Origin: Actinidia chinensis
Lineage: Eukaryota; Streptophyta; Magnoliopsida; Ericales; Actinidiaceae
Reading direction: 5' to 3'
Assembly: GCA_009663005.1 (NCBI GenBank)
Contig: VIGQ01000197.1
Location: 35,001 to 99,000 of the forward strand
Length of the DNA stretch: 64,000 bases
Shown here: positions 1,452 to 61,473 of the stretch, piece by piece
How the letters are laid out: each line of letters begins with the position of its first letter
How positions within the stretch are numbered: position 1 is the first letter of the stretch
Notes under the pieces: generated by a model
Databases searched by the model: none
What the model saw: only the letters and a program-made list of their open reading frames with translations
What the model was told of the DNA's origin: nothing
Made by a program: the position numbers and the translations under genes

Positions 1452-1570
1452 ATGACGACGAAGCGAAGCGTAGAGGAGATATTCGTCTTTTTTCTCTCTC
1501 TCCTCGTCGTCGGAGGCTCGCCCCTGTCTTCGCTCCCCTCCCCTCTCTCTCCTCCTACCGCAACAAAGTA

Positions 1571-1608
<38 letters not shown>

Positions 1609-4600
1609 AATTTTCGATCAGTTTTACAAACTGCTGTTAGGTCATCTCTATCTTTAACTTTGTTTTCATTGAGTAATTTGACAGAATATTGATCTGATAT
1701 GCATTCTAATCCTTTCTTCTTCTTCGCCAAACTTTTCATGAAATTACACAACTTATCTTAAACTCTTCTTTCGTTTTATCAGATTGGAGTAAAATTTTTT
1801 GATAAAAAGTTGTTGTGATATGTGCATTCCAATCCTCCTTCTTCTTCACTAAATCTTTTCAAGAATTTATCAACTCATCCCAAAAAGCTCTTTGTGAGAG
1901 TATAATATGTGCTTCACTCCGACAGAACTTGTTATGAAGTAATAGTCCGGGCGATGCTTGTCCAAGCTCGGCCCGGGACGGAAGCTGCATATTTTATTCT
2001 TTCACAATTACCCTTTAGCTCGCGTGAGTTTGGTCAATAATTGTAGAGGTAATGCGAGCTAGTTGCCCGAGACCTAGGTTGAGGTAGCGTTCGATAGCGT
2101 CTGCAAGCTATCCTTTCAATGTCCTTTTGTGCCACGTGTCATTGTTTGATTTGCTGTGGAGCTTCCGTTAGGTATGAAAATTGAAGCGGCGTATCCACCC
2201 TTAGGCGCTATTTGGGAGGAAAATAGAGCGGTTGGAGTCCTCCTATAAATAGGGAACCCGAACTGACCACAGTTCACTTTGCATTCCAAAGAGAAAAACT
2301 GAGAGAGCGAATCAGAGCATCAACGAACCACTTGCTGTCGCAACCCCGGTCGATCCACCGCACATCTCCGACCCACCCGTCCACCGTGGCCTTGTTTTCC
2401 TTGACGGCAAAATTTTCGCGTATAAGCTCATCCTTGAGCTTATCCTAGCGGAGTTTCTAAAGCCGAGTTTTAGGATAATGTACACGACAAGTTCCCTCTG
2501 CCACCCGCACGCCTCAAACACGATGGTGCAATTGGCTAGCTACCAACCACGCTCTGGGGATAAGATTGGGTCAGCCGCCTACTCGCCTAACATGACAGTC
2601 AATTCGTCCTCACATGTACCGAGCTGCACTATAAAAGGGGACATATTGGTCTCCCACCAGTACGCAATACAATTTTCTCGCTCTCCTGACCTTTCTCCCT
2701 AGAAGACCAGCACCAAGATCCTTTTTCTTGCTCTCTCTTTAGCCATTTTTTTCGGTCACTAACTTGACTATCGGAGAACTGTTCCCCGAACCTTCTCACT
2801 AATGCTGTCTTGCAGGCTGGCCGAACAGCGTCAAGCCATCGGGAACTGCTTTCCAGCCACCATCTTATTTTACGATCAATTTCCTCCCATTCCCACAACC
2901 CCACACTGTTTTAACCATTTTTTTAATGAAAGAAAACCTATCCAATCGATCCTCTTTTTAAAATTTCATCGAATTAGAGAAGTATGGCTCGTTTTTAAGT
3001 TTGATGAATGAATGGTTCATCCTTGATTGGGTTGAAACATTAGGTCTCTGCGATTGTCATATGAAAGTAGTGGAGTTCTCTTTTAGTCCTCCTTCCAGCA
3101 AATTTGAATTTAATGAAAGATTTAGTGAAGATTAGTTCTCCCCTGATTTTCATATGAAGCAGTGAGTTTCTCTTTAGTCCTTTCATCAAATTTAAATTTG
3201 ACAAAGATTTGGTGAAGGTTAATTCTCCCTTAGTCCCTTGATTTTGTTATGAAATCATAGTTCTCTTTTAGTCCTTAAACTTGATGAAAGATTTGGTGAA
3301 GAATGAAGATTCACCAACTCGGAATCGAATCGAGAGAAAAGTTGTCACCCAATTCGGTGAAAGAAACTTTTGGGGAATAGGCTTGGAATTTTTCCAAAAA
3401 GATTTGATGATATGTTCAAGAAAGTAAGGTGGGATCATATGCTTTTATTAAAAAATTTGTTAAAATTGGCTTTTGGTTGTTGGCAAGTTATGAATTTCTA
3501 AAATATTGATGAAAAGCCATTGGAATATTTCATATCAAATCAGTTTTTAACCACAATATTTTACTCAAATTTGAGGAATAAGGATGGAGATGGTCTTATA
3601 TTTAAACTGTTCTTGTATTTTCCTTTGTTTGATTCATTTTACCAATGTCCAACTGTTAAGTGGATAAATAACGTAGGAATGAATAATCTCGTTTCAGTTT
3701 GCTGATGAGAAATTGTGATTGTGCGTCTGGAGCACCATTATTTTGGATTTAGCCAAGCCGAGTCCGGATCTAGGTATTTGTTGAACAATGAGATTAGTCA
3801 CTTTACCTAACTGCAGATAGTCCCCGTGTTTAGCTGTTTCCCATTTGTTTGTTTTTCCACGATGAGACCAAGTAATATTCATTTTCTAGCATTTTGTTTT
3901 CTTTTTCCCTTACCAAATCTTGTATGAACCAAAACGGAGCATGAGTTTCTTGCCTTTCCTCTGTTTTGCTGTGACGTTTAATCCTGTGCTAAGAGTTGCT
4001 TGCTGCTGTCCTTGGTGGAATTGATAGTTACCATTATAATTGCACTCAGTAACTCATTCCTTTCTTTTGAAGGTTAGGAAGTTGAGTTCTGTCAGCTGTG
4101 ATGTGGTCTAAGACATCTAATAGAGTTATTTTTTTTGGGTGCGATCAGGCAAATGCTGGAATTTGAGATTGCTGAGGACATGTTCTGGAAAGATGGTGAG
4201 CCTTTCCAAATTATTGGTGGGGATTTGCATTATTCCGGGTCTCCCTGAGGTATTTCTCTTAAATTGATTTTGCGGTTTTGCTGGGATTTAAGAGTTGCAA
4301 AATTATGTTTGCCAACAACCTATCATATTCTGAAAATGCTGTGAATGGAACGATAGATAAATTGCAATAAAAAAAATCCAGCACTTTTGGTTCCAAAATA
4401 ATATTAATACTCAAAGGTGGACCTACACATGTTTCCGGGGCCCTTCTGGGGATGCGTGCATGTAAAAGACAAACTGTGTGTACCTTGTAGAGATATACAA
4501 AAAAAAAAAACCAGGCTATGATGGAACATGTAATGACTATTCCATTTTTAGCTTCAAAGAATAGGGGATAGGAAACGCTTTACTTGCAATAAACCTACTG

Positions 4601-7600
4601 CAGTTTAAGGAATATAAATAACTATTAAGTTACATAGTAGAATAAGTAGAAGTCAAATAAAGAATTACTTACAAAGTCAGGTACTGACTACTGAGTGAGT
4701 CCCAGATAGGAAGTTAATTTCTCTATTATTATTTTAGATGTGCTGCTTTTCAGTTGTTTTTGCTTTTGTGGCCTTAACATAGACATAAGCTCACCAAAGT
4801 TGGATGACTGATAATAATTATATATAGAGTGTATATTGGAACTGGATGAGTATTCATCAATATCTGGTCTTAATTGTAATGCTTACGGTTTTTTTTTGTA
4901 GTAGCATGTTATTGGATTTGATTTACTGGTTTGGTGGGGTTATATTTTTCTTTTATTTCTTACAGTACAGTATTGGGAAGATAGGTTGTTGAGGGCGAAG
5001 GCATTGGGTTTGAATATATTCAGACTTATGTTCCTTGGAATCTGCATGAACCATGTAGGGGGCAACTTGTTTTCGAGGGCATTGCAGATATAGTCTATTT
5101 TTAAAGCTTGCCAGAAACTGGAATCTCCTGTATGCTTCGACCTGGACCTTATATCTGTGCAGGTAAGCAAGAAACTGTCAGTCAAGAAGTTTTAACAGGT
5201 TTTGTGGGATTTACATCATTTGTCAAGGTTTCTCATCCATCATGACTCAATTCATGCAACTTCATTCCTGAACGCTGGATGACAGAAGATTTGATTTATC
5301 AATCTCATCCTTTACGTGCTACACTATCCGTACTTGGTGCCTAACACTAGATTGTTTGTTTATTTTACATTTGTAACAGGATAAATTAAACTTAGAAGTC
5401 CAGTGCTTTTATGCAAATAAAATCAGGCACGAAACTTTCCTGACAATAATGTTTCTCATCCTCTACTTTCCCTTGCTTTTACCTCTGTACCGTAAATCTC
5501 ATTGCTTCCTCTTCAAACATTAGCTATGGTATCTCTCATGCAGTTTCTTTTTAATTACAACTGTTAATGTGTTCTATGGTGCGTAGTTTGATCTAATCTT
5601 TCTGTGACTGATTCTTCTTATGCTTCTTTGAACGCATCCTCTTGGTCTGAACTTTTTCTGGTTTAACCACAATGCATTCCAGATTTTCTTGAAAATTCTG
5701 TCTGGGGGGGGGGGGGGTTTTTCCTTCTTTTTCTCTTTATTCACCCCCCCACCCCCCCACCCCCTCATTTTCCTTTTGTTTCCTTCTACTTGAAGCACTT
5801 CATTTTTTTTTAATAATGCCATTGCTACTGTTTTACTTTTTTTTCCCGACTTTTTATTCTGATGTTTTAGTCATATATGTTTGCTGCAATATGAAGCAAC
5901 TAATGTATTTCCGCTCTTAACTAAAATATTTCTTTTGATTCTGTCCAAGTCATATATTTAATGGTTCTTCCTTCAAGTCACTTGTACTCGTGCTTATGTT
6001 TATGTTACATAGACGCTTTTAAATTAGTGGAGGTAAACTCAGTGTATATATGCGTTTCTAAATACATTTTATTATCTTGCCCTTATTAGTTCTGATCTAC
6101 TACCAGGTGGAAACGTTCTTATTTGTACTGAAGGCTTTTGCTATTGTATATCACGAATCATAAGTTATGACTAATACCACTTGTTGAAAATCAAATTACC
6201 ATGTATTGGTTCCCATTGAGAACAGCTTTTCTCTTGCAGAGTGGGATTGGGGGGTTTCCCTGCATGGTTACTTGCCATAGAACCAGCTCTCAAATTGAGA
6301 TCATCAGACCCTGCTTTCCTTGACTTGGTTTTACGCTTTGCATTTATATAGTTCTCGTAAGACGGAATATCCTAGTGTATGAACGATGTACATAATATTT
6401 TGCAGTTCGCTAACTAGGTCACAGGTCAATGATTGAGTATTAATAGACTTTTTCAACAAAGAAGCCATTGTGTGGTACACGTTAGAAGCTCATGGTATCA
6501 AGATTGAATTGCCAAAATGAGGGCAGATTAATAATTCTTGGGGGCCCACTGTTTGTATTGCCAAAAAGAGGGCTGATTACTTTTTTCCTTTGGACAATAC
6601 CTCTCATGGATGTTTATATTAACACTTGTCCCAAAAGTTTAAGCTGTCAGGGAAGTTGTCAAACAATGCATGTCAAGATCTCCAACATCTCACATTCTAC
6701 CCTTCCTTGCACGTCGAGGTTCAAACACCCATATATAGAGAGAAGTAGAAAGCAAACAGGGAATAAATGCGAAATAGAGAGACTTGAACTGAAGACCTCT
6801 CCACATCTCAAATTCTCCTCCTTGCATGTTGAGGTGAAAACACCCATATATATAGAAAAAGTAGCAAGCAAACGGGGAACAAATGCAAAATAGAGAGACT
6901 TGAACTGAAGACTCTTGCCAACCTGAGCATCGATACTGGATTGAGATCACCACTTGTCTAAAGATTAACTGTTAGGAAGGGACCAAACAGTGACTGTCGA
7001 GCTCTACGAAAGTTTGGCATAAGATAGTCCCTGCAGGGTAGATGTTGGTAAAACAATCAGAAGATAAGATGGATGTTGGCCGGTGGGCTAAGGATAGTAT
7101 GAAATCCAATGGCAATAAATGGACATGGCCTGCCTCTTTCCATCCCTTATCTTGTCCCAACCAAACACCTGAGAAGACTGTATTAATGTAGAGAATAATA
7201 TAGCCAAGTTTGGAAGTCCAAAGACAATTTGTCCAGGGATGTTCAATGTCTCTACTCCTATCTGTGCAGCAAAAACCAGCTTTATATTATGACCTTTTGT
7301 TCCTTCTGTTTTCATATTTATAGTAGTGGACTTACATACGATGTAACTGTCACAGGTTGAAAGGTGGTGGGGAGTACTACTTCCGCTGATACTCCTTTCT
7401 TTACAGCACGGAGGCCCTATTATAATGGTCCAGGTGGGCGTTTGTTTGCTTATTCTACTCCATAGTTTCTCCTTTGATACCCTGAGAATCAGAAAATAGG
7501 AAATAACGTAGAGTTCATATCGATAATTTCCAACTTGGGCGGTGTTTTACCAGTTTCTGCCTTTAAATTTTAAACCTTACTCTTCTTCTTGGGTATATTA

Positions 7601-8739
7601 TCACGTCCCAAGAAATAGGTGATTGCATTAAACCTTCACAGTACCCATGATATTATATTGGAAACGTGATCTCCTGTTGCTGAAGGTCTCAAATAAAGTG
7701 TGAGAGTTTAAGCCTTGCAAAGGGACACATGAGTCTGCTTCATTCAACTGCAAAGACCGTGAGAGACCTTTGAAGCTGTATTTTGGGTATTTAATTAACT
7801 TTTGAAATTTTCTTTTGTGGGTTCAATGTCCGAACCTTGGAGTTTAGGGTTGCCTTTTCAGTATAACTTGGGTTCTTCTAAATAAAGGAGTTTATGCCTT
7901 TTTTTTTAATCATTTGAGCACTTGTACTCTTAGTTTTTAACTTAATGATATCAATGATATGGACGTCATTATGACAGATTGAGAATGAATTTGGTTCCTA
8001 TGGAGATGACAAAGTTTACCTTCATCATCTTGTCACATTAGCTCGGGGACATCTTGGAGATGACATAATTTTGTAAGTGGTTTTATTTCTTCAGATGAAT
8101 CAGATCTATGTTCATGATTTCTTGCAGAAAACAACTACGGTAATATATTTGTTTCGTGGAACCTCTTTTGATTCTTAAATGGTACATCCTCCCTTTGGCA
8201 TCAGTTGTAAGAGTCCTTTTCGTTTCTTTAAATTGTACTTCTATCTAGTGTACTCGAGTTCTGAAAGATGATGAGTAGTGCAGTTGAGACTCCTTTTTGA
8301 TCATTCTTTAAAGTTGATTAAAACCTTTTTCTATTTTTACTTAAATTTAGAAATCATACAAAGAGCTGGCAAAGTCAACTTCTATATAGAGTTGACCATC
8401 GGCATGTGTGTGTGTGTGTGTGTGGGGTGGGTGGTGGGGGCTCCAAATATTTATGCACTTTTAAGTATATTTTGAACAAGCCCGCCACATATTTATTTAA
8501 ATGCTGGGTCACTAAGATTCTTTAAATCTTATAGTGCATAATTTTTTATGACTTGACAAGCAAGGTCCCACCAAGAAAATTCCTACCTTTCTCTCTGCTT
8601 GAGAACAGTTTCATTTTTTTTAAAAATTGTCACCCATTTTATTGGATGATCCCAAGAAACCTCCACCTAGCAAGTGATTGGCTTATTTTTTTACTTGTTT
8701 TTTATTGTTTCTTTTTGTCTTTTATTTAGTTATTTATAG

Positions 8740-8773
<34 letters not shown>

Positions 8774-11700
8774 TGGGGGTGGGGATTGTGTCAGTGTTTC
8801 ATTTATCGTTTTGCTTTTTGTTGCCATCTTTCCCTTGCCAAAAACGACTTTTTTCTTTTCTTTATTATCTTTTGCCAAGGAGGTCTTCAATTTTCTTATC
8901 ATTTGTTTGCAAATTGTTGCTTATAATAACATCTGACATGTCCATTGTCCCATTCCTCCCTCATGGTTTCTGTACGCATGTATGAAAATGCAGGTGAGTC
9001 CTTGTTATGGATTGTGCAGGTACCGTCCCTTGTCTCTATATGTTGCATTTGAAATTATCATGCGATGGATCTTAACTTCGTAATAATAATCTCAAACCAA
9101 TTTTCAGCTCATTATTCTTTCATCTCTTCTTTGATCTCATGCTCTTGAGTTCTTTCTTATCTTATCTTTTTGCTACTTTCTGGATGGATGGACAACCAAC
9201 CCAAAAAAATTGCATGCACCAATGATGATAACATAATGAATGATGTATTGGGAAGGAACTTAACTTCCGGATATTGAACAAAGTTGAATTTTAAGGCAGC
9301 AATGTTTGTTTTTTGATCATCAATCTTTTTCTTGACTACATAGCAATGGTTTCTAGGTATACTACAGATGGAGGTTCAAGGGAAACGCTAGAAAAAGGAA
9401 CAATTCATGGAGATTGCTGTATTTTCGGGTAAATTTATTTAGATGCTACAATCATCACTTACAATCACTATTTCGTCTACATACACCATCATGGTATCCT
9501 ACAATCAAACAATATTCTACCTGCTTTAAATACGGAACGATCTATCCCACACCTTAGAAAGCTTAGTCACGTCACTAAATTATGAGGAGACTGTTTGAGT
9601 CCATAAAACGATTTTCTTCAAATGACATACTACTATGATTCGTCGCCGATCAATAAACCTTGGAGATTGGTTAGGATAAACCTTCTTCCATTGGTCACCT
9701 TGTAAGAATGTATTCTTTGCAAATGCCAATCAGATTTGGCAGCAAGACTGTTGAAAAATCGAACAGAAGCCATCTTCACCACTAGTGAGAATGTCTAGGC
9801 GTAGCTGGGACCATAACTTTTGGTATACCCCTTTGCTACAAGATGAGCCTTAAGTCTCTCATCTGTACAATCAGGATGAACCTTGGACTGCATACCCACT
9901 GACATCCTACTACGAACTTTGCCCTTAAAAAGAGGCAGAGTCCTAACTCCTAAGTATTATTTTGCTTCAAGGAAATCATTTCTTCTTCCATGGCATTCTT
10001 CCAACTGCAATGAGATAGATCCTCTTTGAAAGATTTAAGAATCAGAATAGATGGCTAGGCAGCAACAAACGAGAAGCAGGGAGGGGATAAGTGATAATCG
10101 TAATCTCTTAATTAATATAGGATCTCTTACCTTCTAGGCAACAATGAGAAGATCTAAATGAGTGGTAGAGAGTGGTAGATGACTGATAACTGGTGGGCGG
10201 TGACATTGGGAAAACTGAGGCGTATGGATCAGGCTTTGCATTTTGGCGACGATCTTAAATCTTTAAATGAGGTTGAGATAGATGCTTAGTAAAGTAGGAA
10301 TAGGTGGTGATTAATTCAGACTGGGAGAATTAAGATGAGGAATTAGGGGAGGAAGAGCATTAGCATAATAGCATGATTAGTTACAAAGAGAGGTTTAGAA
10401 ACTTATTTGGGAGGGAGGGAGGTGTGTGTCAATGTCACTTAAAGAAAGTAACATCCCTACATTTAAAGAAACAATACAGAACTGGACTAAAATATTGGTT
10501 CCCTTCTGAGTAAGAGCGTAGGCCAAGATGATGCACTTATAACTGCATTAGGTTCATACTTGTCTCCACCTATTACATTTGTTTGGCATCAATTTAAATT
10601 GAAAACAAAGAAAATAAAGTGCAGAAGACAAAGAAAGGCAAGTAGGCTGCACTGTTCCTATGCCCTTTGCTAAGGTTACATTAGGTGAAGATGACAAAGA
10701 CTGGAGATGAGAAGAAGATATGAAATATACCTAATATCTGATCAGTGATCGTGGAGCCGATAACCATGGTCAAGAAGTAGAAGAAGAAGATAAAAAGGGG
10801 GCACCTTCCTGATGCAGAGATGAAATAGGAAGAGAAGACTTGAGATGCTTTATACTGAACGAAAGAAATTTATGATATTGAGATATTCTCCTCGGACTCA
10901 ACTCAATAGGTGAAGACAATGATGAAGGGTCTCAGACTCTCAGTGCATTGGAAAATTGAGGCCTCTCCCTTGATCCCTACACGTCCCTTGAGTATGGTTG
11001 TCCTTCCACAATGAGGATATTAACTATGTGAAACTCTACCACGACCCCTCGGCCATTACACAAGCTACCTCTGGGACAATCATTGGAACTACCACTACCT
11101 TTACAACCACTGAAGCTATTGTACTGATCAATTCTGCGTTTTGGAGTCTACTGTGTGACTAGAGCAACGTAATCAAGATAGAAGCACTAGAACACTGAAA
11201 ACTATCGCAATAGGTGACACGCATACTCAGGAATATGCTTTTGCAAGAGATAGTTCAGCACCAGCTAAAATAGAAGATCAAACTGTTACTGAACTACGCC
11301 AAGTCTCAAGCTAGTTAAATATTTCATCACAACCATATGTTACTGTGCTATTGCATTTTCCCAACATCATCAATGATAGGTAGAACAACTCTTCACAAAC
11401 CTGTTTGGGTTCAGAAAATTAATCTCTATGTTTAGCTCCTGCAACTATTTATATGAATAAAATGTGCTGATACCTTGACATAAATGCTCTCAACGACTGT
11501 AACAAAAGATGTATTCATGATTCTTATGGAGCAACATATGCGTAATACATTTCATGATCACAAAGTGTGCAGCGTAAATTAAACTAAAAAGTTATTGATG
11601 TGAATGGTTTATTTGTAGCTGTTGACTTCACTACTGGTGATGAGCCATGGCCTATTTTTAAGTTGCAAAAGGAGTTCAATGCCCCGGGCAAATCACCACC

Positions 11701-14700
11701 TCTTTCTGCGTCAGTATTTCATTTTCTCATTCTTAGTGTAACTTGTTAATCATTGCAGTTGATGATGCTCATTATGTTTCTTAGTTCAGTGAATTTTATA
11801 CTGGTTGGCTACTCACTGGGGAGAGAATATTGCGAAAACAGATGCTCATTTTACCGCGGCTGCCCTGGAAATGATTTTGTCAAGGAATGGGTCTGCTGGT
11901 GCTCTATGTACGTTCTGAAGTATACTAGTTTTTGTAGGTTGTGTGTCATTGTCTTACATATGCTTTTCTAATTTCTAGATGGCACATGGTGGTACAAACT
12001 TTGGATTTTATGGTGGCGCTAACACGGGGGCAAACAAGTCTGACTACAAGCCTGATCTTACTTCGTATGATTATGTGAGTAAGATTCCCTTGTTTATTTT
12101 AAATTCTGTACTGCACTTAGAAGAAGATCCCAATTATGGGTTCATCATCGTTATCAAGGTGATGCCTTCTTCTTTCAGGATGCACCTATTAAGGAATTGG
12201 TGATGTGGACAACGCAAAGTTCATTGGTTTGTATTGAGTTCTTTTTGGTCTCTACTATTTGGTGCTGTTATGTGTTCATGTGTGAATTTTGTTATTTTTA
12301 CGAAAATGCCGCCTTGTTATCTTAAAGTGGAAGTTTGTTTTGATTTTGGAGGTATTTTATAGGCTTCTTACCTGTAGTTTTCTTTCAATATGCATTCCAA
12401 AGTTGGTCATGACTTGAAAAATTGGGACAAATTTCAGAGACTTGCAGGGTGATGTTTAAGCAAAAAATTCAGTAATATTGTGGAAGTCTGACAAAGTTCC
12501 AGACTTAAGTCTAAGCATTAAATATTGCTATAGTCACTAAATGGGGTATTTATTTTTCTTTTTTTGGTTGGGGGCGGGGGTTGTTTCTGCTTAGAGCATC
12601 TCCAATGGACTCACTAAAGAACTTGTTAACTTATAACATGTTCAATTAATAATTTTTTGTCCAATTTTTGGCCTCCAATGGAATGACTAAAGTGGCCTCT
12701 TACTTTAATCACTCTTAGTTTTTGTTAAGTGACTCACTAAATCTAGAGAGTTGCTTAACAAACCGAGGGAGAGAGATAGAGAGAGGAGAAGAGACATAAG
12801 ACTAGATAATGGGGTCCATTTGTTCGTTTTTAAAACTTTTGTTTGTTTTAACACACTTTTGACTAGCCCATTGGAGCATCCAATGACTCTATAAATTAGT
12901 CAACATTTAACATACAAAATTGGGACCCATTTTTGCTTGTGTATACTTTAAAACACATTTAGCACAATTTTTTGTTTAGTGCAATGGAGATGCTCTTAGT
13001 TAGCTGAAGCTTCTATTGCAATATTGCTCTAGTAAAAATTTATTGACGATGATTTCACTATTGCTGTACTGTGTAGTGTTTGGAAGATATCTTGAAGCGA
13101 CAAGTTTGAGAGACTAACCTGGGTTTATACTAATTGCTTGTACACAACAAACTTTGCTAGCTGACTTCTTTATAGTGATCCACCATTTATTATTCTCTTC
13201 AATGTCTAACCATTTGAAAGAAAATAGACAAAGGATATTCCATATGCATCAAGGGGGGAGCTTGATGTATGTAGCGGACTATATATTAGTTTTGTAGTTG
13301 GGATGTTGGGAAGATATCAAGATAATCCTGGGATAGAGCATTGGAAAATAGTGAAGATGTCTAAAAATTATGTGCTCAATTATAGAAAATCAGATCGTTT
13401 GGACGTGATCGGATACTCGGACTCAGATTTATTCGTTGTCCCAATAGAGAAAGTCAATATCACTGGTTCTACAGGCAACGTTTAACGCTATATCTAATAT
13501 CAGGATGTTTTGACAATGATGATATCAAAGCCTGTGCATACTATTTCGTGTCAGTTACCTAATCCTAGTTTGTCAATCTTTCTTTCAAGGGCCATAAGTT
13601 CAGATAAACTACACTTTACCATGACTTTCCTCACTATCTCAACTAATAGTAATCTCCTTGCTGATTAAATCACATCTTTTTATGATGATATTTTAAAATC
13701 TCTTCCAATTTGTTATTGACTATAATAAGTAATCTGCTTATGAATATGGTAATGCATTCAGCTCTGCGGACGGTTATAAACAAATACAGTGCAGCATCTC
13801 TTCCTTCAGTTCCTTCCAATAATGAAAAGACAGGATATGGACACATCCAGCTACAGAAAACTGCATTTTTGTTTGATACATTGAACATTGAAGATGCTAC
13901 TGATGTGTCTAAATCTATAAGCCCAATTTCAATGGAGTCTGCTGGCCAGGTACATGACTTTCATGGTCTGTTGCTTGTGAAGTTGATTGTCTCTGGTTGG
14001 CTTATTCTGCTAAAACTTGAATGTGTTTTCTGTTCAGATGTTTGGATTTTTATTATATGTATCTAGATATGCTGCAACCTACATGAGAGAACTCTGTTCA
14101 TAGAAGAGGTAATGCCTTTCCCCTACGTGTATATTTATCTTTGATTGATGTCAAGGCTCGTATATATTATGATGGATGGTACACATATCTATGAATTCAT
14201 GTACCAGAGTGAGAAGATGGTCCCTTCTAAGTTCAATAATTTGGTTACATATTTACAGGTAAAGAAGCATGATATTCATGCAATTAACCAAGCTATACAA
14301 ATATCTATAGGCGACAAGGGTAGAAGGGTAGCGGTAATTAGTTTTGGCAACATGAAGTTGACTAATATGTATGAAAATATTTATTTTGTTTTAACAATTT
14401 TGGACAACAACTTCTTTTACAGAGTTCTTCACCAGACCAGTGTGCCATATTGACAAGAATGCGATTCTGTCAGTCACATTTTACATGGCTATATTATGTT
14501 TATAAGCATCTATTTTTAGTTCTGCTTGTGGCTATGCCTAGTTTTCTTCCTACATCCCAATGCTCTGCAGTTTGTTTACCCCTGAAAGGCAGCTGCTCAG
14601 TTCAAATTTTCATATCCATTCATAAAAAAAATTGCTCTTTTTAAAATTTGCAGAATATCAAGTGTCTTGGTGAATTTGACCTCTATACTATTGTCAATTG

Positions 14701-24048: not shown

Positions 24049-24148
24049 ATGGATCATTCGTTCGGAGGAGGAAGTTGGTCCATGATCCCCAACATTCCCG
24101 TCCACAGTAACCCCACTACACCCGCCAATCAGGACCATCTATACCTCC

Positions 24149-24184
<36 letters not shown>

Positions 24185-28386: not shown

Positions 28387-28524
28387 ATGTCAAATTATTT
28401 CAGGTTGATGCTAATGTGATGAAATGGAAGGCAGCTTCTTGACCCTGCCAATTTATGTCAAAATCATTTCAGGTTGATGCTAATGTGATGAAATGGAAGG
28501 CAGCTTCTTGACCCTGCCAATTTG
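28387..28524. repeat. 69-bp tandem duplication carrying an exon-like unit
   Basis: Two nearly identical 69-bp copies each contain 'tttcag' followed by a frame reading VDANVMKWKAAS and a TGA stop. It could be a duplicated terminal exon or 3' UTR segment of an upstream transcript, perhaps MED9, but nothing ties it to a gene. Confidence 0.85.
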
Positions 28525-42621: not shown

Positions 42622-42657
42622 GAGAGTGAGAGTGAGAGAGAGAGAGAGAGAGAGAGA
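42622..42657. repeat. (GA)n microsatellite
   Basis: A GA run preceded by two GAGAGT units. Confidence 0.9.
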
Positions 42658-43089
42658 TGAACAAGCATGAAGTACTCAATCACAGTATGTGGCCATAGAG
42701 TAGAGTAGTTATTAGACAGTCACAATATGAATATCAAAGGCCAAAATTAGAACTTCAGCACTATACCTTATCTGTCTTGTGGACAAATTATGGATCGGTT
42801 AATCCATTGTTGTCAAAAACGAATCACAGAAACACGTTGTGATTTCACTAAGGCGTGATCTACCATGTCAAAAATGAATGGCCAAATATAGAGGTGGATT
42901 GAGCAACAGCATTGCATTAGAACAAGAAATATCACACAGAAAATCACAACAGGGGTAGATAGTTTTTAAACCATAACAATCTATCCAGTTGATCGCAAAC
43001 CACCCAATGATTCTTCTACACAACCAAAAATCTTCATCCTTAATAACTAGAGCTCAACATAATCACAGTTAAACCAGATAATGAAGCAG

Positions 43090-44401: not shown

Positions 44402-44448
44402 TATCTCTCTCTCTATATATATATATGTATGTATGTATGTATGTATAA
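44402..44448. repeat. Compound (CT)n(AT)n(GTAT)n microsatellite
   Basis: Three adjacent simple repeats in direct succession. Confidence 0.9.
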
Positions 44449-44580
44449 ACTATTTGTGGAAGTGTGATCTATAGGTGAATGTGTTAGCTGACGTTGTACT
44501 CAAAACCAATCACGATCACACACACAAAGAGAATAGAAATTATGGTGGTGCGGCCAATAATTTTTACGTCTCGGAAGAAG

Positions 44581-44606
44581 AAAAAAAAAAAAAAAAAAAA
44601 AAAAAA
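44581..44606. repeat. A26 homopolymer
   Basis: Twenty-six consecutive A after a purine-rich lead-in (gaagaag). It may be a retroposed poly(A) tail or simple-sequence expansion; no source gene is evident next to it. Confidence 0.85.
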
Positions 44607-48700: not shown

Positions 48701-51700
48701 TTGAAGCTTTTACTGAAACTGTATGGGCTCGAATTTTTAGTTGTGAAGTTGTTGGTATTTAAGTTCTTAATAACTTTTAATTAGGTGATCATTTGGGATG
48801 TTGAGGCTCAACCTCATCGTCACGCGTATTGTATTGGGAGCTCAAGATTCCCGACCAGACCTGGTATATTTTGCATTTTTCGTGGCTTCCACGTTCCTCT
48901 TCATATGTTTATGTTGTCGTCTCATTTTGTTCAACATGTTTATAGCTCAACCCCTCACCAGATGTGGTTTGAAAAAATAAAGTTAATGCATACATATCTC
49001 TGCTATACGTTATTAGCTGTTAATGATCTTTGATTTTTACGACATTAAAACTTAAAATAAAAACATAAAATATATGTATCTTTGAAGTTTTTTGCTATTT
49101 TGCCATAAAAAAAGCCTTGCTATTTGATGAGCTTTCTTCTTTACGCAGGCTATCTGATAAATTTGTAAACGCATCTTGCAGATACTGACTGGGCATCAGG
49201 ACAATGCAGAATTCGCTCTTGCCATGTGCCCCACTGACCCTCTTGTGCTATCTGGAGGTTGACAGTTCACATTTGATTGTTGTCTCATACAGACTTTATA
49301 TATGATAATACATCTACTGAATCTAAGTTGGTTGTGATGTTAACGTGTACAATTTATTGTTACCACAATTTTACTCTTACTTGCTAGAGTTGGAACACCT
49401 GGTTGCTCTAATATGAACACCCCACCCTCCACCTCCTTCACTATATTAACCCCAAAGAACTGAAAGAAGAATGTTAAAGAAGCTATTCTTTTATTATTTT
49501 CTTAACATTTATATTTGAATCTCTTTGCTTTGCATTAATGTTGTTTCCACCTGTATGAATGATTATGTATTGCATATGTAATGACTTTACTTATTGTTGT
49601 TCCCATGTAGTGGAATGTCATCATACTTATATGGTTGTTGTCAAGAGATATTGTTACTTATGAACTTGTCACTTCTTTTTGTCATTGATAATGCAATCAA
49701 CAGTGATATTTTTCCAAACTCGCATGGTAAAACTATCGACCGTCTAATGTTACTTTATTGGTTCACCACCACACTGATTCCCGTCTCCCTTTTTGGGTTG
49801 GGGATGGGGAGTTGGAGAGTGCTCATAAACCCAAGTCTAATTCAATCCAAGTGCAGTAAATTTAGGAGTTGGCTAGATGAATATTGAGTTATATCTTCAA
49901 TAACCACGATGAAATTATTGTGGGGACTAGTGAACTTGACATTGGGAAAATAATCATGTTAAGCTGCTGATCAAATTTCATAACTTCACTAAAAGTTGAA
50001 GAAAGGAATAAGCTCATGGCGGTTACTAAGCTTAGAATTGATTTATTTGGAAGTGCCTAAATCTCCTTTTGTAGCTTTGTCCCGTTTACACTTATAACAC
50101 TTTTTCTTGAAAAGAACCTTAAAGCTATATCTTTGAATGTATTGTAAAAGTAAATATTTTCCTTATTATTTTATTTTTCTTTAGAATCTGTTCATAGTTT
50201 TAACTTCATGACCAAAGATGTTGAAAAAAAGTGATTTTGATCAAGATAACAGCATTCCTTGGTGTGGCGAACATGCTTGGCACTGTAGAAGTGGATATAA
50301 CTCAACGACAATTCTAAAACTTCAGGGGCCAAGGACCTTCAGTACATAATCCAAAATTGTTATCTTTGATCTTCAATAGAACGCGAACATCTAAATCATG
50401 ATGCTTCCTATCCGAGTAAACAAGGTAAAAATTGATTTATGAAGGCTTTATTGTCATAGTACTGCAGACTATTTTTGTTACTAGATTGTAATGGGCTTGT
50501 GGATCAGGGGGTAATGGATGCAAGACTAAGTTGGTCTGATGCTAACTCAAGGAAATAAATTGCACACGAATTTCTTTAAGATCAGCATATAATTTAGCCA
50601 TCTCATAGTTTAATGAACTATAGTTGTGATATGTTCGTACATGTGATAGGGACTTGCCTCGTGTAAGCATAGCATAAGATCATCACTTGGTTAGGTTTTC
50701 TGAAAGGCCATTTAGGGTCAATACAGAACTCCTATTTGACGATCTATACTGTTAAACTCAGTCTATGATGTCTCTTCTTACTGTGGCAATACTCATTTAT
50801 ATTTTTTCCTTCCTTTTTGTCACGAGAGGTTATTTACTTTGAATGAAATCGTCATTTCTAATGTTTTCCACTTCGGTTACTTTATTAGGATCATTTTAAT
50901 CTTTTATGTACTTTTTCAATCTCTACAAGGATACGTAGAAGAGAAAAGTTGCAGGTTAAATCTAGCGAGAAGAATGATGTATTTTGATCTTCAAGAGAAC
51001 TATTTCCCTAACATACCATGCCATTCAAATCATATTATTAAAAAAGAATGACTAAAATTATTTTCTTTTCCAGACTTTCTGTTTAGATATTTTTCAAAAT
51101 GTGGAACTTTTCTTTCTTACATGGCAGGGAAGGACAAGTCGGTGGTTATGTGGGAGCATCCAGATCATATCTCCTTTTGGCAACAGCATCCCAGTGTCTG
51201 CAAAGTCTCCTGGATCTGGTAGTGGCAGCAAAAATACATCGACGGACTGGTGGGGCTAGTGATAAACTTGTAGGACGGCCCTACTATCGGACCACGGAGG
51301 TACCTATCAGGGTCACGGGGACACTGTTGAAGATTGTGCAGTTCTGCCCTTCGAGGTAAGTGCATAACGTTGTGTCAATGCATCATTATGTTAGACAAGT
51401 AGTATATATTCATGGATACTAGCTGCAATCCGTTTTCTATGAATTAATATATATATATATATATATAAATTGACACAAATATTTTCTCTCTGGAGAGATT
51501 AGGACTTGATGCAGCCCTATGCTGAATACTTTCTGTGTAGCAATAACTCTAGTTTGCGGTTATTCATGCTGCGCATTTGTTGACCTTGCACTCTATTTTT
51601 TCTGAGCGCGAAAGGAGTTCGCAGCGTTGGTGATGATCCTTGCCTCTAGATATGGGATGCGAAGAACCGGATTCCGTCCAGTGGTCCTCAATGGGTTAAC

Positions 51701-54700
51701 ATCTTCAACTTGATTATTTAAGCTGAGCAGCTCAATTTTATGAAAAAATTTTGTTTTTATTTGCAACGCATTGATATATGCTTGAGGCCTAGCTTCAATC
51801 AGGATTTTGTTTATCTCACCCCAAAGTCACAGAAGAATTTGATGTGCCTGTGTCTGAAAATTATGCAGAAAACTGTGGCTAATAATCTTTTAAACCCTTA
51901 TAAGAGGTGATAGGCAAAAAAAAGTTTGTCCTTTTCTTTGATTGTGTTTGGAGGAATGAAAAACTGTTTTAAAACAAATTTTCCCTAAAAGCTTGTTGTG
52001 TTAAAACCATAATTGCGATGCTAAAACTTAATCAATCCATACCTCAGCTATTGACTATTTACCTAAGGATAGTCACATTGTGTATATTGGGAGAAGCTCA
52101 GGTATTACACGCTTTACATAGTATTTAGAAATTTGCGTTATCACCAAGGCCAGCAAATGAACGGCATATAGTTTAGGCATGTATGGAAGTAAGCTAGCAT
52201 TCAAATCGTATTGCTGTATGCACAAAAAAAGAGAGGAGCATTGTATACGTTGTATACTAATGCATGATACATAACAACTCTAATATATTATGTATCTATA
52301 TAGGTTAGAGCCGATGCTTTTATAATTTATAGATGTTTTTATTATTCTTTAACACTTTTTCTGTCATTTTTAAATAATTTTACATATTTAGTAAGTTAAA
52401 TTATTAAATTTTGAAATGCTTACACTCAACAAATCAGGCTTAACTTTGCCTTGCTCATTTTGCTTTTGAAATCACTGAGCCGTGTTGTAGCAGGTCCAAG
52501 CTAACTTGGCCATTGGGAACATAAGTCATGGCAAATCTTATTTTCAGTTTAGGCTTGGAAGCGAGGGCATATCAAGCTTCGAAAGTGGTCTCGGGTTCCA
52601 TTTGAGTTGGACCTCCTCTATACTTTTTCAGAATGAACTGTAATTTAATATCTGTTTTTAGCTCAGTTGATTAGTTTGTGTTTGTTCCAGACAATATATA
52701 AAGATAGTGATCACAGCCCTTTTTTAGGGTGCTATTCCCCCTCCCCACGTGAAAACTTGTAAACCTTTTGCTTTTAGTTGATAAGTTGGGCATTTTCCCA
52801 TCCTTTGTATTGTTCTGGTGCTAGCCGTACATGATTGGTTCCCACTCGTTAGATTAATTGGACATGGCCCGGTTTTGAGGATGGGCTCATTACATTGGAC
52901 AATTGCCATCTTATGGGATTTTGGGAAAAATTGTGACATAAAATTAATGGGGGTCTCTATGTTGTTTTCTAATTTTTTCTTCCAACTGATTTTTATTATT
53001 AATTCAGGCACTCTATTGTGTTGCGCAAACCAAAGCAACCAACTAAGCTTAATGTCCCAACTCCCAATCAATTTGGGTCGGCTCACACCAAAGTCGCCTG
53101 TTGTTTAATTATATCTCCATGGACTTTTTTCTTGTTTTGTAATTAGTGGATGGGGCCACCGTTGGACGTTGGTGGTTCTTGTTGCAGGGTGAGAAGGCTC
53201 ATGAGCCGGACCTGCACTGTGTTGATTGGAATCATCATGACGTTTAATCTCATCATAACTGGGTAGTGGACTATGCTATGTTTCTTCATTTGTTAATTTA
53301 CCAATTGTTAAAGTGATGGCTTAGCTATTCTGGTTTTTCGTTTTCGGTGTTCAGACATCGTCAATATCTGTGAATGTCACTTTAGTGATGTTCCACACTT
53401 TTCTGATAGCTATTGACCATGCTGTTTCTTCAGGTCTGCGATACTTTGTCGCAGGTTGACCGTCGAACCTAACATCTGGGGGGCGTGGATCCCTGTTTCA
53501 TATATTTGAGGGTCATAGTGCTGTGTCCTTTGTGTTCAGGTCTTGGAAGATTACATAGTCTAATCTTTAATATTGAGTAACGCATCTGCAGAAAAATAGG
53601 GTATATAACTACGGATCGGCTATGATTAAATAGAAGTTCTGCATTTGTCTCAGTGGTCTCCAGACAGGTCGTCGGTTTTCGGAAGTTCAGCGGAGGATGG
53701 CATCTTGAACATCTGGGACCATGACAAGGTCTGAAGTCTGAACTGCTATTTGGAGCAATTATTATTTTTATTTGTTAATAATATCTCATGAAATATACAG
53801 AGAGGGGATAGAACCTAAAAATTCCTCAACACTCAGAAAAAAACACATGGAAAAATATGATGTCAGAAAACTAAAAGTGCTTTTCCACTATGAGTTTGAG
53901 ATCATGTGAAGTATATATAAGGTAATGCAGATTAAGTGACTTGCAGTAAGGAAAAATCCGAGAGGCTTTAACGAGGCATCCAAGAGAAACAAAAGGAATA
54001 AATTTTAAAACTAGCTTTTGATTATGTAGCCTTTGTCTCTGTTTGAATCTGGTGATGAGCTACCTTGTCACAGCTTTGGTTCTCGTCCTGAAAATTATGT
54101 GCAGAGTTCATGTTTTCGTGCTCAACTTTGCATAAGTACAAAATATTGTTTTTTATTTTGGTACCAGATGGTAAGAAACAAGAAGCTGTTGGAACAAGAG
54201 TTTCAAAATCAGCCCCACAGGCTCCTTTCCTTCCACCTATTCTTCCGACATGCTGGCCACAGGTGTGGATCTTTTTTCCCCATTGAGAATGTCAGTTTTA
54301 ACTTAGCAGTTGTAAAAATGTGACTCCTGATGATCGACATGTGATCTCTCTCCTTACATAGGTGACTTTCCTGGTTGTAAGGTTTATTGTAATCATTATT
54401 ACTTTTGAACATGACTGCTATCTATATATTCGTTGTCATTAGTATTACCCTACTGATTCGGCACTGTTGTATTGAAGTAAATGGTTTCATTAGGATAAGG
54501 TCGTCGATTTCCCATGGAATTCATGTGATCCGTGGACAATTGTTAGCGTTTCTGATGATGGTGAAAGTACGGGTGGGGGGGCACATTCAGGTAGCAACTA
54601 TTTCTCTGCTATCTTTGAGACAAAGAATAACTTTTATGTTTTCATAGAGGAAGAGAATAACGAATTATAGATACAAAACAAAAATTCACGTCGGTCTTCT

Positions 54701-55347
54701 AAAGATGATTTAGGACAAGTCATAACATTTGTTAGACAAAAGGATGGAAAGTTATGTTTGGTATTGATTTATTTCTGTTTTCCGTTGCTTTTTTTGGAGA
54801 CAAGAAATTGTTTGGCACCACTGTTGTGAAACCTGTTTTTGTGGACATATTTTGAAGACAAGCTTTTTCACAGAAGGCAAAAAATTATGACTTTCCGCGA
54901 AAAAATGAATATTACATGAAAATGATCTGTCTTCTTGTTCTCAAAAAAACTGATTTTTGGAAAAGTGTTTGCAAACCTATTTTGAAAATTGCAACGAAAC
55001 CAATTGAGTGGGTCCACCTTTCTCATGTTTCTATTACAGCAACTAACAAAACCACTGCATCATGAATTGTGTTCATATGACAGTTGTACTTCTGTTTCTG
55101 TGAGAAATGATGGATACCCTAGTAGTCATGTCTTCAGAGAGAAAAAAGATAGAAAAAATGTATTTGAAGTTTGGTGAGGTGACTAGAAATCTCTCAATAA
55201 CTGTTCATTCATTACGCCATCCTTAAAATGAGGTGGTAATTGTGTTTGTGCAATATGGGCGAAGGATTGACTTGATTTACAGGCCGGAAGAGGAGGTCAT
55301 GCCGAGGCTGGATAAGTTAAAAATCTCACATACTTACCTGTGTTTGA
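45711..55347 (+). CDS. MSI4: WD40 histone-binding protein, MSI4/FVE type (15 exons, frameshifted)
   Basis: MSI4/FVE is an RbAp46/48-like WD40 protein in histone-deacetylase and PRC2-type complexes that controls flowering time. Exons by eye: 45711-45839, about 46636-46698, 47153-47248, about 47360-47422, 48584-48647, 48785-48863, 49182-49257, 51128-51355, 51607-51694, 53188-53262, 53434-53539, 53654-53728, 54168-54262, 54494-54590, about 55253-55347. Segments include YDWLA, LVWPSL, TDGSVP, IIWDVEAQPHRHA, ILTGHQDNAEFALAMC, KDKSVV, LHCVDWN, WSPDRSSVFGSSAEDG, then ILNIWDHDK, FFRHAGHR, DPWTIVSVSDDGESTGG and a C-terminal RPEEEV. Exons 7 and 12 are intact; the others carry one-base indels, for example one G short in the G-run at 54575-54581 and at least five losses in exon 11. 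Exon 4 is the most degraded, and its donor and that of exon 2 are not canonical. WD repeats can be followed in order, so the identity is firm; MSI5 is the close alternative. Confidence 0.85.
49258..51127. other. MSI4 intron 7
   Basis: A 1.9-kb AT-rich intron between WD40 exons. Open frames at 49594-49887 and 50839-51051 show no domain and are taken as chance. Confidence 0.5.
51448..51468. repeat. (AT)n microsatellite in MSI4 intron 8
   Basis: About ten AT units. Confidence 0.85.
51695..53187. other. MSI4 intron 9 with possible retroposon tail
   Basis: A 1.5-kb intron. At 53020-53095 the minus strand reads 'ccgacccaaattgattggga' followed shortly by 'aagcttagttggttg', resembling the 3' tails of plant SINE/LINE elements. 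The assignment is tentative; a 120-codon minus-strand frame across this region is not a recognised protein. Confidence 0.35.
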
Positions 55348-57209
55348 TGATGCTCTTGAGAGGAACCTCCGGTTATCTTTACTTCTGAATTGTTTAACAC
55401 CGAGAAGCCAATGATCAATAGTGTTCTCTTCCATGGTATGGATGTTCCATCGAGGAATGCCACCATGAACTTTGTTTGAATGTCTTTTTTAAGTCTGCCT
55501 CCATGGATTTTCACCTGGGGGGAGAAGAAGGAGAGATTTAAAGGAGAAGGGGTGTTTGGCAAAAAAACTTATTGTGCAGCTTTTGAGATTTTAGCTAATT
55601 TGAAGCAGCTTATAAGCATACGCATCTAGTAACTTGTTGATGGCAAAAAGAGTTTTTACTTTTTCTCAAAGCATCCAAGGGGTTATTTGCAGCTCGGCTC
55701 GTTTAGATGGTGGGCTCTAAGAAATAAAGGACTCAAATGTTAATTACTATTGTTAATAATTACAGTCTGTTATTTTGCATTAAACAAATTAAAGGACTGC
55801 TTAAATTTGAAACTACAAGCTCCGCAACACGTTTTGTACTTTTAAAAAAGTCCAACAATCTAAAATTTTACTAACCTATACTAATATTTTTGACGGACAA
55901 ATTAAGAACTTCTGTTTTTTAAATGTCAAACTTATCGGGTAAACATGTTGATTTTGATATCTTTTATCATTATTGCCTACATTCATGATTGGCATGTATT
56001 TTTCTGTTACTGGATTATTCTCTTATTAAGCCCTTGTTTGAGTTACTTTTTTTTTCTTTTGTTTTTAATGATTTTTTTCATCATTTAATTAAAATATTAT
56101 ATTTTTTTTAACACATTTTAATAACGAGGAATTTAAAAATATAAAAAAAATTATCTAATTTTAAAAAAAAAAACTTTAAAAACTAAAAATAACCAATTTT
56201 ACTTGACTAAATAGTTGTTTTTTTGTCTTTTTTTTAAAAAATGAATAAAAAAATTATGTTTTAAATTTATCTAGGAATCGAAAAGTATAAAAGTTTGATG
56301 AACAGATAAATATAAATATTCAAAAATCAAAACAAACAAAAAATCTCAAAAAAAAACACAAAACCCCGTCAGTGCTAAACACCATAACGCATAAAATGAA
56401 GCCATCCTCTCTACCCTTTTCATTGTGGTCAATCTGATTCCTTCACATACCAATTAATCTGGGTTGATTTGCTCAATTGGGGTGGCGTGGGCTATAAGTG
56501 TGGTTGGTTAGTGCTTGGAGTCTCTCTCTCTCTCTTTCCCAACCCATATAGGCAAAGACACAATCGGCTGTTCACAACCTATTCATGGCCAAAGTTGAGC
56601 AACAAATGCCAACATTTACATCACCACCACTGATCATTCCGAAAACCTTCCACACCGTCATCAATTTAATCGAAACCTAGTCACACGAATCCGTCCACCA
56701 ATAGTTGGCCACAAAGACTGGACACCACCCACCGCCACCGCCACCGCTGATGTGTAAAGCCACTCCCTCTCTGGTTTTGGTTCAACAAAGTGGTAAGGGA
56801 AGGTCGGGTTCTGGGGGTGTATTGGTGGGTTCGTGGAGTGTTTTGGTAATAAGGTTAAGAGTGGGCTTCAAATTGATTGGTTTTGGTCTCTCGGAAACAG
56901 GGTGGAGTGTTTTGTTGGGAAAATAAATTGTTGCAAGTATTTTATAAAGGTTAAGATTGGCATTTCAACACATACAAAATGATGACATAAGCATTTTCCG
57001 TGAAGTCCACTAACGGCTGTTAAGTTAATTCGAGCTCGGTGGAAATGATCCAAAATCAAATAGGTTCTTACTAAATGGATGAGGTGGAAGAAGCAATGGT
57101 GAGGCTGGAAATAGCACGTCCTTCTCTCTTTAATTGCTCGGCTGGCTTTGCATCGTTTTTCTTCAGCTCTTTCCTACCCTCTCTAAAACACGTACTCTCT
57201 CGAATCGAA
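55348..57209. other. Intergenic between MSI4 and the TM9 gene
   Basis: Contains an extremely A/T-homopolymer-rich block (56030-56370), CT runs (56520), a short CCACCG repeat (56727) and the GC-richer 5' flank of the next gene (57120-57209). No gene is seen. The open frames at 55326-55562 and 56705-56926 are not supported. Confidence 0.5.
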
Positions 57210-60200
57210 GATGGGGAGTAACTCAGCGACGGTGGCCGCTATCTTCTTCTCTCTCCTCCTCCTGATCTCACATACCTACTCATTCTATCTCCCCGGCGTC
57301 GCTCCTCGCGATTTTCAAAGGGTACTCTCTCTCTTTCTGCGTTGAACTAATCGATCTATGCTTCGTGTTTCGTCGCGCGTTTTCTTGTAATTTCGTTGTA
57401 ATTTGCACATGATTTAGATCTGAGGTTGCGGAATTTTGATCTATGATGCGTACTTATGTAGTCTCTTGTTGTGGACTGGAGGAAATGTTTGGTCTAGGGT
57501 TTGGTGGTAGTCAGACATAACAGGTCGACATTTATTTGAGGTTTTTGATGGTTATTGTTTACCCGAACGCTATTGAATTTCTTGTTTTCTTGCTTTTTTT
57601 GTATTTACTATGCGGTGGTAAGAGGAATTACTCACAAATTTGCATACCGCATTTGCACTTTGATGGCACTCTAGTTTTCAAGACTTGCGTCAGCATCTGG
57701 GGGGGGTCTATTTTTGGGTATATTTCTTCTTTTCAGTGTTTTGGTGATCATGGAGGATTCACTTAGTTCTTGGAATTATTTAGAATAAGAAAAAAGTATG
57801 CTAGGATGATCATTGTTCATGGTACGAGGGAGTTAAAATCTTGGATGCGGGGATTTCCTTAAGATCGTTGGTTTTAGATTGGAGAAGCAATGTAAAATTG
57901 TTAGATTTTGGAAGGGACCAAAATGCTAATTTTTTTTATGATGCCTTGAATAAAGTGGGCTAATAGAAATTGATTGAAGCTGGGAGGCCCATGCCTCGCT
58001 CTATTTCTGCCCCTGGGTTTGATTAAAACTACATGATTTGTCTTGTTGTTTGGCATTGTATAAAGTGAGATAACACATGGTAACTGAGCCTGACCACTGA
58101 GGTGGAATCATGGCATTAAGTTGCCAAAAGTTCCATTCTTATTGCGGAACCAGAATAGGAAGTGCCAACTATGTTCTTCCAAGTTAAGATCACCTAATTT
58201 CCGTTCGAAGGAATTGTGCATTGGAACTTGAGAGCCTGCAAGTGCTGTTGTGCCATCACCGTGGTCATTTGTTGGTCATTTTTTTAGATATAGCTAAGTT
58301 CATTAGAGTTAAGAGATTTGCTTACTGGAAGTAAAATTGGGTTGGGCTAAAATACAAGTTGCAGAAGGTGGACTTGGTCTTGTAGGCTTAAACAATCTTT
58401 TGTCTGGTCTTTCTTCTTTTTTCTTTTTCTTGTTTTGGTTTTGTTGGTTTTTATTTTTATTAATTGCAATGGGATGTTTTTTAATGCTAATTAGGAACCT
58501 TTTGATCTATCAAAAAAGAGCTTCTGTTTTTGAGATTGCGGATCTCCTATAATGATACTGAATGTTTATGACATTGTTGTCTTTATAACAGGGTGATCCT
58601 CTTCCAAGTTAAAGGAAAACAAGCTGTAATCTCCAAAGACACCAACTTCCATATGATTACTATTACTGGAAGTACGTACGCTTCCAAAATTATGAACAAT
58701 GCTGTGAAATTTAGGGGAGGTTCTCGAGGCGGATCGTTTTATAGAGAATTCTGTCTACACTGTGAGCATTATTAATTACTGTTACCTTTTCTATTAATTG
58801 GCATTGGACAAAGAAAGTATTTGATGTTACGTTTCTGTTCTTAATGTGTCACCATAAATTTTCAAAATATATTGCATTCAATATGAGGGAAGAGCAGCAT
58901 CAAAGGAGCTGACACGAATTAAGGTGAAGCTGATACTGCAAAGAATTTAAGGAAAAAATTGATGACGAATATATATAGAGTGAACATGTATGATGAAAAG
59001 AGGCCCCGTCATTATTTGTGAATAACGATTATTTATTTCCTTCCATTCAATTATTTTTTAAGAGTATTGGCTGCGTTGCAATATATTTCTTGTTTTTATT
59101 CCATTTGCAACTGAAGCTGTATGCAGGCGTAAGATTTACACATAGTTATCGGTTTTAAACTGAAATTTCTGAGATGGGTTTTCCGGATTATAGATAATCT
59201 TCCTGTTGCTGTTCTGCGGCAAAGGGGAGGGATGGAAGTCCGTCAACCACTTATGGAACATGGTTTCCGTGTGTGGGAAGTTTCAAAGGAATTATGCAGG
59301 AGGTGAGGTTGCAATAGACAGCTTTATTGTATTGTGCTCGTTGGTTCTTGGTAATTAGATTGTAATATTTTGTGCTTCTGCAGAGCAAAGAGGAGGACGT
59401 ATTTTATAAACAACCACTTGAGCTTAGAGTCATGTATCACAAGGATCCGAGACTGATTCCCGAATGTGGGGTTCGAGTTACTCCTAACAGGTTATTGATT
59501 TATACTTGCGCTGCTCTTGTGGTCGTTTTGGCAAAAAAACCTCAGTTTTGGCAAAAAAAACCTATTAGTGTAAGATCTGATGTTTGGTGATGTAGTGTAT
59601 CTGCCCCACCAGGATGAGGTAGAGGATGAAGTTAAACTATCTACTAAAAAGATAAGACAATAATTTAGACGATAGTTATATTTCACTTCATTCCCACAAA
59701 AACTCTTGTAGCTCTTTTGTGCAGGGAGAAAGTCTTTATCTTTTGATATGAGTGATCTAGGCTTTATAATGAGCTACTTTTACTTGTTGATAATAAATGA
59801 TCTGGAGTTCTGAACTTTCGTTTTTTTTTTGTTGGCAGAATAACTGAGTGTTTTCTGTTTTGTTTTTGTCCGGTTGTATGTTATATAGAGCTCCCCCCCC
59901 AACTCATCCTTCGTATATGATGATTTCCATTAGAAAGAATAATGGAGATTGTATCCTGATATTGTAGGTGTGTGTTGGTTGTCCATGAGAATGTAACAGG
60001 CCAAATTGTTTATTGAACGGGCGTACTTTCTGTGCTGGTTGTTAAATTGTGTTGGTGCTTTATTTTCATTTTTACCTTTGCTTGTTGAACAGTATTAATC
60101 ATGAGTACAAGGAGTGGGTATGAGAAGATCCTCAGGTAACAAAGGGGCAACCAGATACCAAAAATATATTCAGGCCAGCACGTTCCACAGGAGGTTGATA

Positions 60201-61473
60201 AAGTAAGGACATAGTATTTACATATGATGTTTCTGTAAGGTACTTGGTGCTGAAGCACGTAGGACCGGGCTCCCCCATAATTTTTCGAGTGTTATCTTAT
60301 GTGGCTTCCAACTTATGTGATTTTATTTTCCCTCCCTTCAGGAAAGTGACGTCAAGTGGGCATCACGTTGGGACACTTACCTCCCATGAATGATGATCAG
60401 ATCCATTGGTTATCATCATAAACCTCTGATGATTGTCCTCTTCCTTTCTGGCATGGGTGCATGAGTATGATGAGAACTTTGTACAGAGATATTGCAAACT
60501 ATAATCAATGGACACCACAGGATGAAGCTCAAGAGAACAGGATGGAAGCTTCTCCATGGAGAGTTTTCAGGGCACAATTAATTTGGTTTACTCTGTGTTA
60601 TATTGGACTGGTGTTCAGGTCTTTGCAATGACCACTTGTAACCATGCTATTCGAGCCTTGGTTTCTTATCACCTTCAACCGAGGGGGGCTTATGACTGAT
60701 ATGGTTTTTATGGGTCTTCATGGGCTTATTGCTGGTTAAACATCTGCATTCGCCTTGTACAAAATGTTTAAGGGCACTGGTGGAAGAGGACTACTTTGAA
60801 AATGCCTTATGTTTCATGTATTCTGTTGGCATATTCTTTGTGCTGGAATGCCCTCATCGGGGAGAATCTTCTGGAGCATGCCATTTGGAACTATGTTTGC
60901 TCTTGTGTGCCTTATGGTTTGGTATATCAGTACCTTGGTGTTTGTGGCGTTACTTGGGTTTCAAAAAACCAGCCAACAAAACAAACGGAAGCCCCAGTGA
61001 AGACAAACAAATTCCCAAGGCAAAAGACCCGAGCAGGCTTGTATATGAACCAGGTTCTCGATTCTGATTGGAGCATTCTCAATTTGGGGCGGTTTTCATT
61101 GAGTGTTCTTAATCTTGACATCGATATGGCTGAATCAGTTTACTACCATATTCGGATTCTTTTCAAGTTTTCGTGCCTTATAATCACGTGTGCTGAGATG
61201 AAACTATTGTGCTCTGTTATTCAATTGGGCAGTGGAAGACTACCATGTGGGTGGAGGGCTTACCTGACTGCTGGCCCGCCGCTTTTTACCTCTTCCTGTA
61301 CTCTGGCTTATACTTCTTCACCAATTGGAGATCACTAAGCTGGTTCCGGCATCTTGTAACTTTGGCTATAGAGTTAATCGGCTCATATGCCTTCTTGGTT
61401 TGACGGGAACAATGGGCGTTTACGCTTGCTTCTGGTTTGTGAGGAAAGATCTATTCTTGTGAAGATAGACTGA
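57210..61473 (+). CDS. Transmembrane 9 superfamily (endomembrane protein 70) member, seven exons, frameshifted
   Basis: TM9SF/TMN proteins have a lumenal N-terminal domain and nine membrane spans and act in the Golgi and endosomes. Exons: 57210-57319, 58592-58761, about 58876-58987, about 59187-59302, 59384-59490, 60093-60202, 60342-61473. Exon 1 gives a signal peptide (FFSLLLLISHTYS) and FYLPGVAPRDFQR. Later segments are GDPL, a tyrosine-rich YDYY, MREEQ, KNFKEKIDDEY, DNLPVAVLRQR, LRVMYHKDP, ESDVKWASRWDTYL, MPFGTMFALVC and CAEM. The single large last exon holds the membrane region, as in plant TMNs, and ends with KID before the TGA at 61471-61473, the KxD/E Golgi-retention signal of this family. 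One-base indels occur throughout, including lost G bases at the splice junctions near 58875, 58988 and 60203. It matches the Arabidopsis TMN7-12 group best; the exact member is not resolved. Confidence 0.87.

Follow-up and report, generated by a model that had tools for sequence, protein, structure and literature searches.

Frame-shifted genes in an Actinidia genome stretch: very probably unevenly corrected consensus error rather than a pseudogene cluster

In the consensus-error cases of Watson and Warr, single-base indels shift reading frames, and intact genes come to mimic pseudogenes. The abstract of Kastor reports, for small genomes, detected errors amounting to less than 0.05% of the sequence; that of Polypolish makes a statement on repeats, related to the resistance to short-read polishing that is proposed below for noisy stretches. 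Several assembly routes are described for Actinidia. For A. eriantha ‘White’ (PMC6446220), Canu and wtdbg assemblies were joined by Quickmerge and then treated with Pilon, which corrected 2,818,370 bases, 2,495,388 insertions, and 1,691,495 deletions; A. chinensis ‘Hongyang’ v3 (PMC6804796) likewise combined Canu and wtdbg through Quickmerge, with Pilon afterwards. ‘Hongyang’ v4 used polished nanopore contigs as gap fill, and the diploid var. deliciosa assembly was made with NextDenovo and NextPolish.

The window (the whole stretch of 64,000 nucleotides that was analysed) shares its genus with ‘White’ and ‘Hongyang’ v3, both merged, Pilon-corrected PacBio assemblies; they are compared here as assembly routes, and neither is tied to the window as its source. 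Its genes resemble the Watson and Warr cases. Relative to the rate in the Kastor abstract, the noisy stretches here carry errors at some fifty to ninety times the density; the organism, unlike those there, is a plant, and a single gene can pass from clean to noisy sequence and back. We conclude with high confidence that this is a stretch of Actinidia nuclear genome from error-prone long reads, whose consensus was in part well corrected and in part left near-raw. The broken look of the genes is sequence error, an ordinary data-quality artefact and no biological feature, and the plant itself probably carries intact genes. Those considered are:

1386..20042, plus strand: BGAL17 (GH35 beta-galactosidase) gene, 19 exons, aligned from reference residue 8 to A. 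chinensis P0121
24049..24404, plus strand: Q-rich exon 1 of a gene we take to be MED9-like; one frame change by eye in a three-frame reading
29337..30018 (end approximate), plus strand: LBD (LOB-domain) gene, few frame changes
33200..35640 (ends approximate), minus strand: HOTHEAD-like GMC oxidoreductase gene, several frame changes
45711..55342, plus strand: MSI4/FVE WD40 gene, 15 exons, error-rich, aligned to A. rufa P0241
57211..61471, plus strand: TM9 gene, aligned to A. rufa P0116 with one gap filled from Camellia
57211..57321, plus strand: TM9 exon 1, free of shifts and mismatches (37 of 37 codons agree with A. rufa P0116)
58592..61471, plus strand: TM9 exons 2-7, the densest errors, 73 shifts in 1774 exon bases

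The BGAL17, MSI4, and TM9 genes were aligned to intact proteins by dynamic programming (DP), with a frameshift- and splice-aware program in C whose moves were codons, losses or gains of one or two bases, gaps of whole residues, and introns, whether or not their ends were GT-AG. Intact relatives, back-translated and run with the identical program and settings, served as controls. Under the sharper scoring, nine of eleven controls (one of them P0121 against itself) gave no shifts, and the other two gave 7 (Bertholletia P0125) and 1 (P0009) false shifts. Shift counts depend on scoring: with a milder scheme (BLOSUM62 and raised shift penalties) all ten intact controls, P0125 and P0009 included, gave none, and the counts in the window were 11-13 for BGAL17 (four references), 28-52 for TM9 (three), and 18-25 for MSI4 (three). 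The frame shifts in the window thus exceed chance, as judged by the intact controls.

BGAL17 is the clearest of the three. Among at least 120 matches listed from a capped candidate set, the best for its stitched peptide was A. chinensis P0121 (778 bits), followed by a Camellia protein (664 bits); this near-identical intact protein is that of the same species or a sister species. Outside the shifts, the DP alignment to P0121 is identical at 673 of 677 codons, and all 18 introns have GT-AG ends. It holds 22 shifts (19 losses, of which 17 are of one base and two of two bases, and 3 one-base gains), where the original prediction, at about 16 (14 losses and 2 gains), was too low; its claim that the gene has no in-frame nonsense is borne out, with 0 stops. 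Unchanged scoring against three other plant references gave 17-18 shifts.

For MSI4, A. rufa P0241 was the best among the matches listed (at least 120). Together with the BGAL17 match and the identity of TM9 exon 1 to A. rufa P0116, this assigns the window to kiwifruit or a very close relative. Of the codons aligned to P0241, 378 of 427 are identical, leaving 49 mismatches and 3 stops; shifts are present in 13 of the 15 exons and number 42, with gains (20) almost equal to losses (22). Two other plant references gave 39-40 under the same scoring. The TM9 search, which like that for BGAL17 scored a capped candidate set, also listed at least 120 matches, and the reference used was the A. rufa P0116 protein with one absent stretch taken from Camellia. 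Here 512 of 561 codons are identical, with 49 mismatches, 2 stops, and 73 shifts (53 losses and 20 gains; 66-73 against three other plant references with scoring unchanged). Exon order and protein motifs are therefore retained despite repeated frame shifts (22, 42, and 73), as had been predicted. The further statement that GT-AG ends are spared holds for BGAL17 and fails for MSI4 (8 of 14 introns with canonical ends) and TM9 (3 of 6), although the aligner may have misplaced intron ends in these noisy genes; splice sites damaged as well as frames are consistent with the error explanation. As for the number of broken genes, given as six, BGAL17, MSI4, and TM9 are confirmed by alignment, while the LBD and HOTHEAD-like genes were compared with distant PDB segments, and MED9 was read by eye.

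The balance of indels and substitutions can be set against that of genes losing function. Neutral pseudogene decay typically brings several substitutions per indel, in the range of 5-8. In simulations, 24 single-base indels were planted in the back-translated BGAL17 gene with R substitutions per indel, and 12 runs were made for each R. The shifts recovered numbered about 22 whatever the value of R, while mean changed residues rose from 1.2 (R = 0) through 5.8 (R = 0.25), 19.2 (R = 1), and 52.1 (R = 3) to 86.6 (R = 5; range 78-96) and 132.1 (R = 8; range 124-142), with mean stops of 4.6 and 6.5 at these last two values. The 4 changed residues and 0 stops observed fit 0-0.25 substitutions per indel.

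These figures bear on the possibility of a real pseudogene cluster, that is, a duplicated segment that lost its function and decayed neutrally, with intact paralogues elsewhere in the genome. Such a history would account for several adjacent genes being frame-shifted, for the record of a near-identical intact BGAL17 protein, and for the in-frame stops in TM9 (2) and MSI4 (3). For BGAL17, decay at the usual pseudogene ratio is ruled out, since 78-142 changes and about 5-6 stops would be expected. In MSI4 and TM9, the 49 mismatches in each fall short of even R = 3, at which simulated values were 92-142 and 171-207, respectively; and ruined and clean exons alternate inside a single gene. A pseudogene cluster is thus strongly disfavoured, and we consider it extremely improbable.

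The TM9 counts fit 110 indels planted in 1914 bases at R = 0.3 (simulated means of 74.0 shifts, 41.7 mismatches, and 2.2 stops; 69.8, 43.6, and 1.2 in a second series). At about 6% indels, TM9 resembles a barely corrected long read in quality. Those of MSI4 fit 60-70 planted indels at R = 0.6-1; one further setting (70 indels, R = 5), in which a mean of only 114 codons aligned, was left out. For both genes, R is an upper guide only, because genuine divergence relative to the reference species enters the counts. Mismatches per shift are higher in MSI4 (49 for 42) than in BGAL17 (4 for 22), an excess that the reference species explains only in part and that counts against the error reading. In all three genes indels outnumber substitutions, by these fits (0-0.25 per indel in BGAL17, about 0.3 in TM9, and 0.6-1 in MSI4), and it is because of this high ratio, above all in BGAL17 with its 22 shifts, 4 changes, and 0 stops, that we favor error over decay, in support of the prediction of consensus or assembly error. 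A very recent, almost purely indel-forming mutational burst, confined to patches of the segment in one plant lineage and leaving substitutions nearly untouched, is an explanation to which we give next to no weight.

A second feature, absent from the original prediction, says the most about the cause: the errors are patchy within genes. BGAL17 goes from error-rich to almost clean along its length, with 25.1 shifts per kb in exons 1-5 (16 in 638 bases), 7.8 in exons 6-11 (4 in 510 bases), and 2.1 in exons 12-19 (2 in 931 bases). MSI4 has 29.3 (42 in 1433 bases). TM9 has 0 in exon 1 (111 bases), 37.2 in exons 2-6 (24 in 645 bases), and 43.4 in exon 7 (49 in 1129). The noisy stretches thus hold 25-43 shifts per kb, and a uniform density is rejected (chi-square p 1.4e-8, for stretches chosen post hoc from the exon table and with one small expected count). 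The mix of losses and gains also differs by gene (19:3 in BGAL17, 22:20 in MSI4, and 53:20 in TM9; p 0.012), as if different reads dominated in each.

Losses tied to homopolymers are the usual sign of nanopore error; those in the window show no clear tie of this kind, a point against the favored reading itself. Another account would be uniform under-calling of homopolymers across the window, as in an unpolished nanopore consensus. Overall, losses do exceed gains (94 to 43), and the original prediction placed the indels mostly in homopolymers. That may be true of BGAL17, where 58% of the 19 losses are close to a run of at least 3, against a background of 45% (p 0.20); it is not borne out over the three genes, where such a run occurs no more than 2 bases from the shifted codon for 36% of the 94 losses, with a background of 43%. 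MSI4 lies below its background (14% against 42%), and its 20 gains nearly match its 22 losses, both of which count against general under-calling. The test itself is weak, since it detects only the run remaining after a loss: simulated random losses lay near a run in 48% of cases (background 45%) and homopolymer-only losses in 51% (background 36%), a comparison that also speaks against uniform under-calling, and with a 4-base window the two simulations barely separate (57% against a background of 48%, and 58% against 56%). With that window the 43 gains lie near a run in 74% of cases against 55% (p 0.0065, uncorrected among many tests).

One segment stands out by its run lengths:

48001..56000, no strand: stretch nearly without homopolymer runs of at least 8 (run-length table)

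Here 1 of 82 runs of at least 5 reaches 8 bases, compared with 74 of 478 outside this segment (p 7e-5 by Fisher's test, for a stretch picked post hoc), and this scarcity is a point in favor of under-calling and of the near-raw consensus reading alike. Between 56 and 64 kb the sequence is noisy too, yet long runs are present, so runs have not been shortened throughout; an uninterrupted stretch of 26 A at 44581-44606 also counts against uniform homopolymer shortening. Given in addition the uneven error density, we regard uniform under-calling as very unlikely.

Returning to locally uncorrected long-read consensus, the noisy stretches would keep roughly 2.5-6% single-base losses and gains, with fewer substitutions. 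They might have been left by low local read depth, by the merge of two assemblies, or by gap filling; as to the assembly step responsible, any choice among these is a guess. Once near-raw, such stretches could have escaped short-read polishing, because short reads would map poorly where there is one indel per 23-40 bases. The millions of Pilon corrections in ‘White’ are in keeping with this reading, in that they show how much repair a published Actinidia long-read assembly has required.

Gene prediction on this sequence would call genes broken or missing, among them MSI4/FVE, a gene with a role in Arabidopsis flowering, and pseudogene counts would be inflated. The ratio of indels to substitutions in frameshift-aware alignments separates consensus error from decay without reads, and patchiness within genes means that a genome-wide mean quality value can mask far worse stretches.

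The genes between BGAL17 and MSI4 add some detail. The LBD gene matches Pfam PF03195 (1.2e-32) and PDB 5ly0 (1.1e-25), and has 1 shift in 76 LOB-domain codons, the reference being a distant PDB segment only. The HOTHEAD-like gene matches PDB entry 8s2y and (R)-mandelonitrile lyases (best 1.6e-24), with 8 shifts in 139 aligned codons, again relative only to distant PDB segments; its stitched peptide gave no Pfam match at 0.01. The MED9-like name of the Q-rich exon is putative and follows the original prediction. No tRNA genes were found in the window. Within a BGAL17 intron, a reading frame on the minus strand (9798-9956) resembles a Ty1/copia reverse transcriptase motif; a 53-residue piece from it had no Pfam match at 0.01.

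The deposited A. rufa TM9 protein (P0116) lacks one stretch and seems to be frame-shifted across it; the A. rufa gene model may therefore itself be faulty. There are also several tandem duplications in the window. In the noisy left part, the copies within the duplications at 6679-6912 and 3052-3229 differ by 4% and 8% indels, respectively (86% and 81% matches), and nearer the middle, those within the duplications at 20924-20995 and 28387-28523 hardly differ (0% and 1% indels). Independent errors in each copy would produce this pattern, and so would older duplications.
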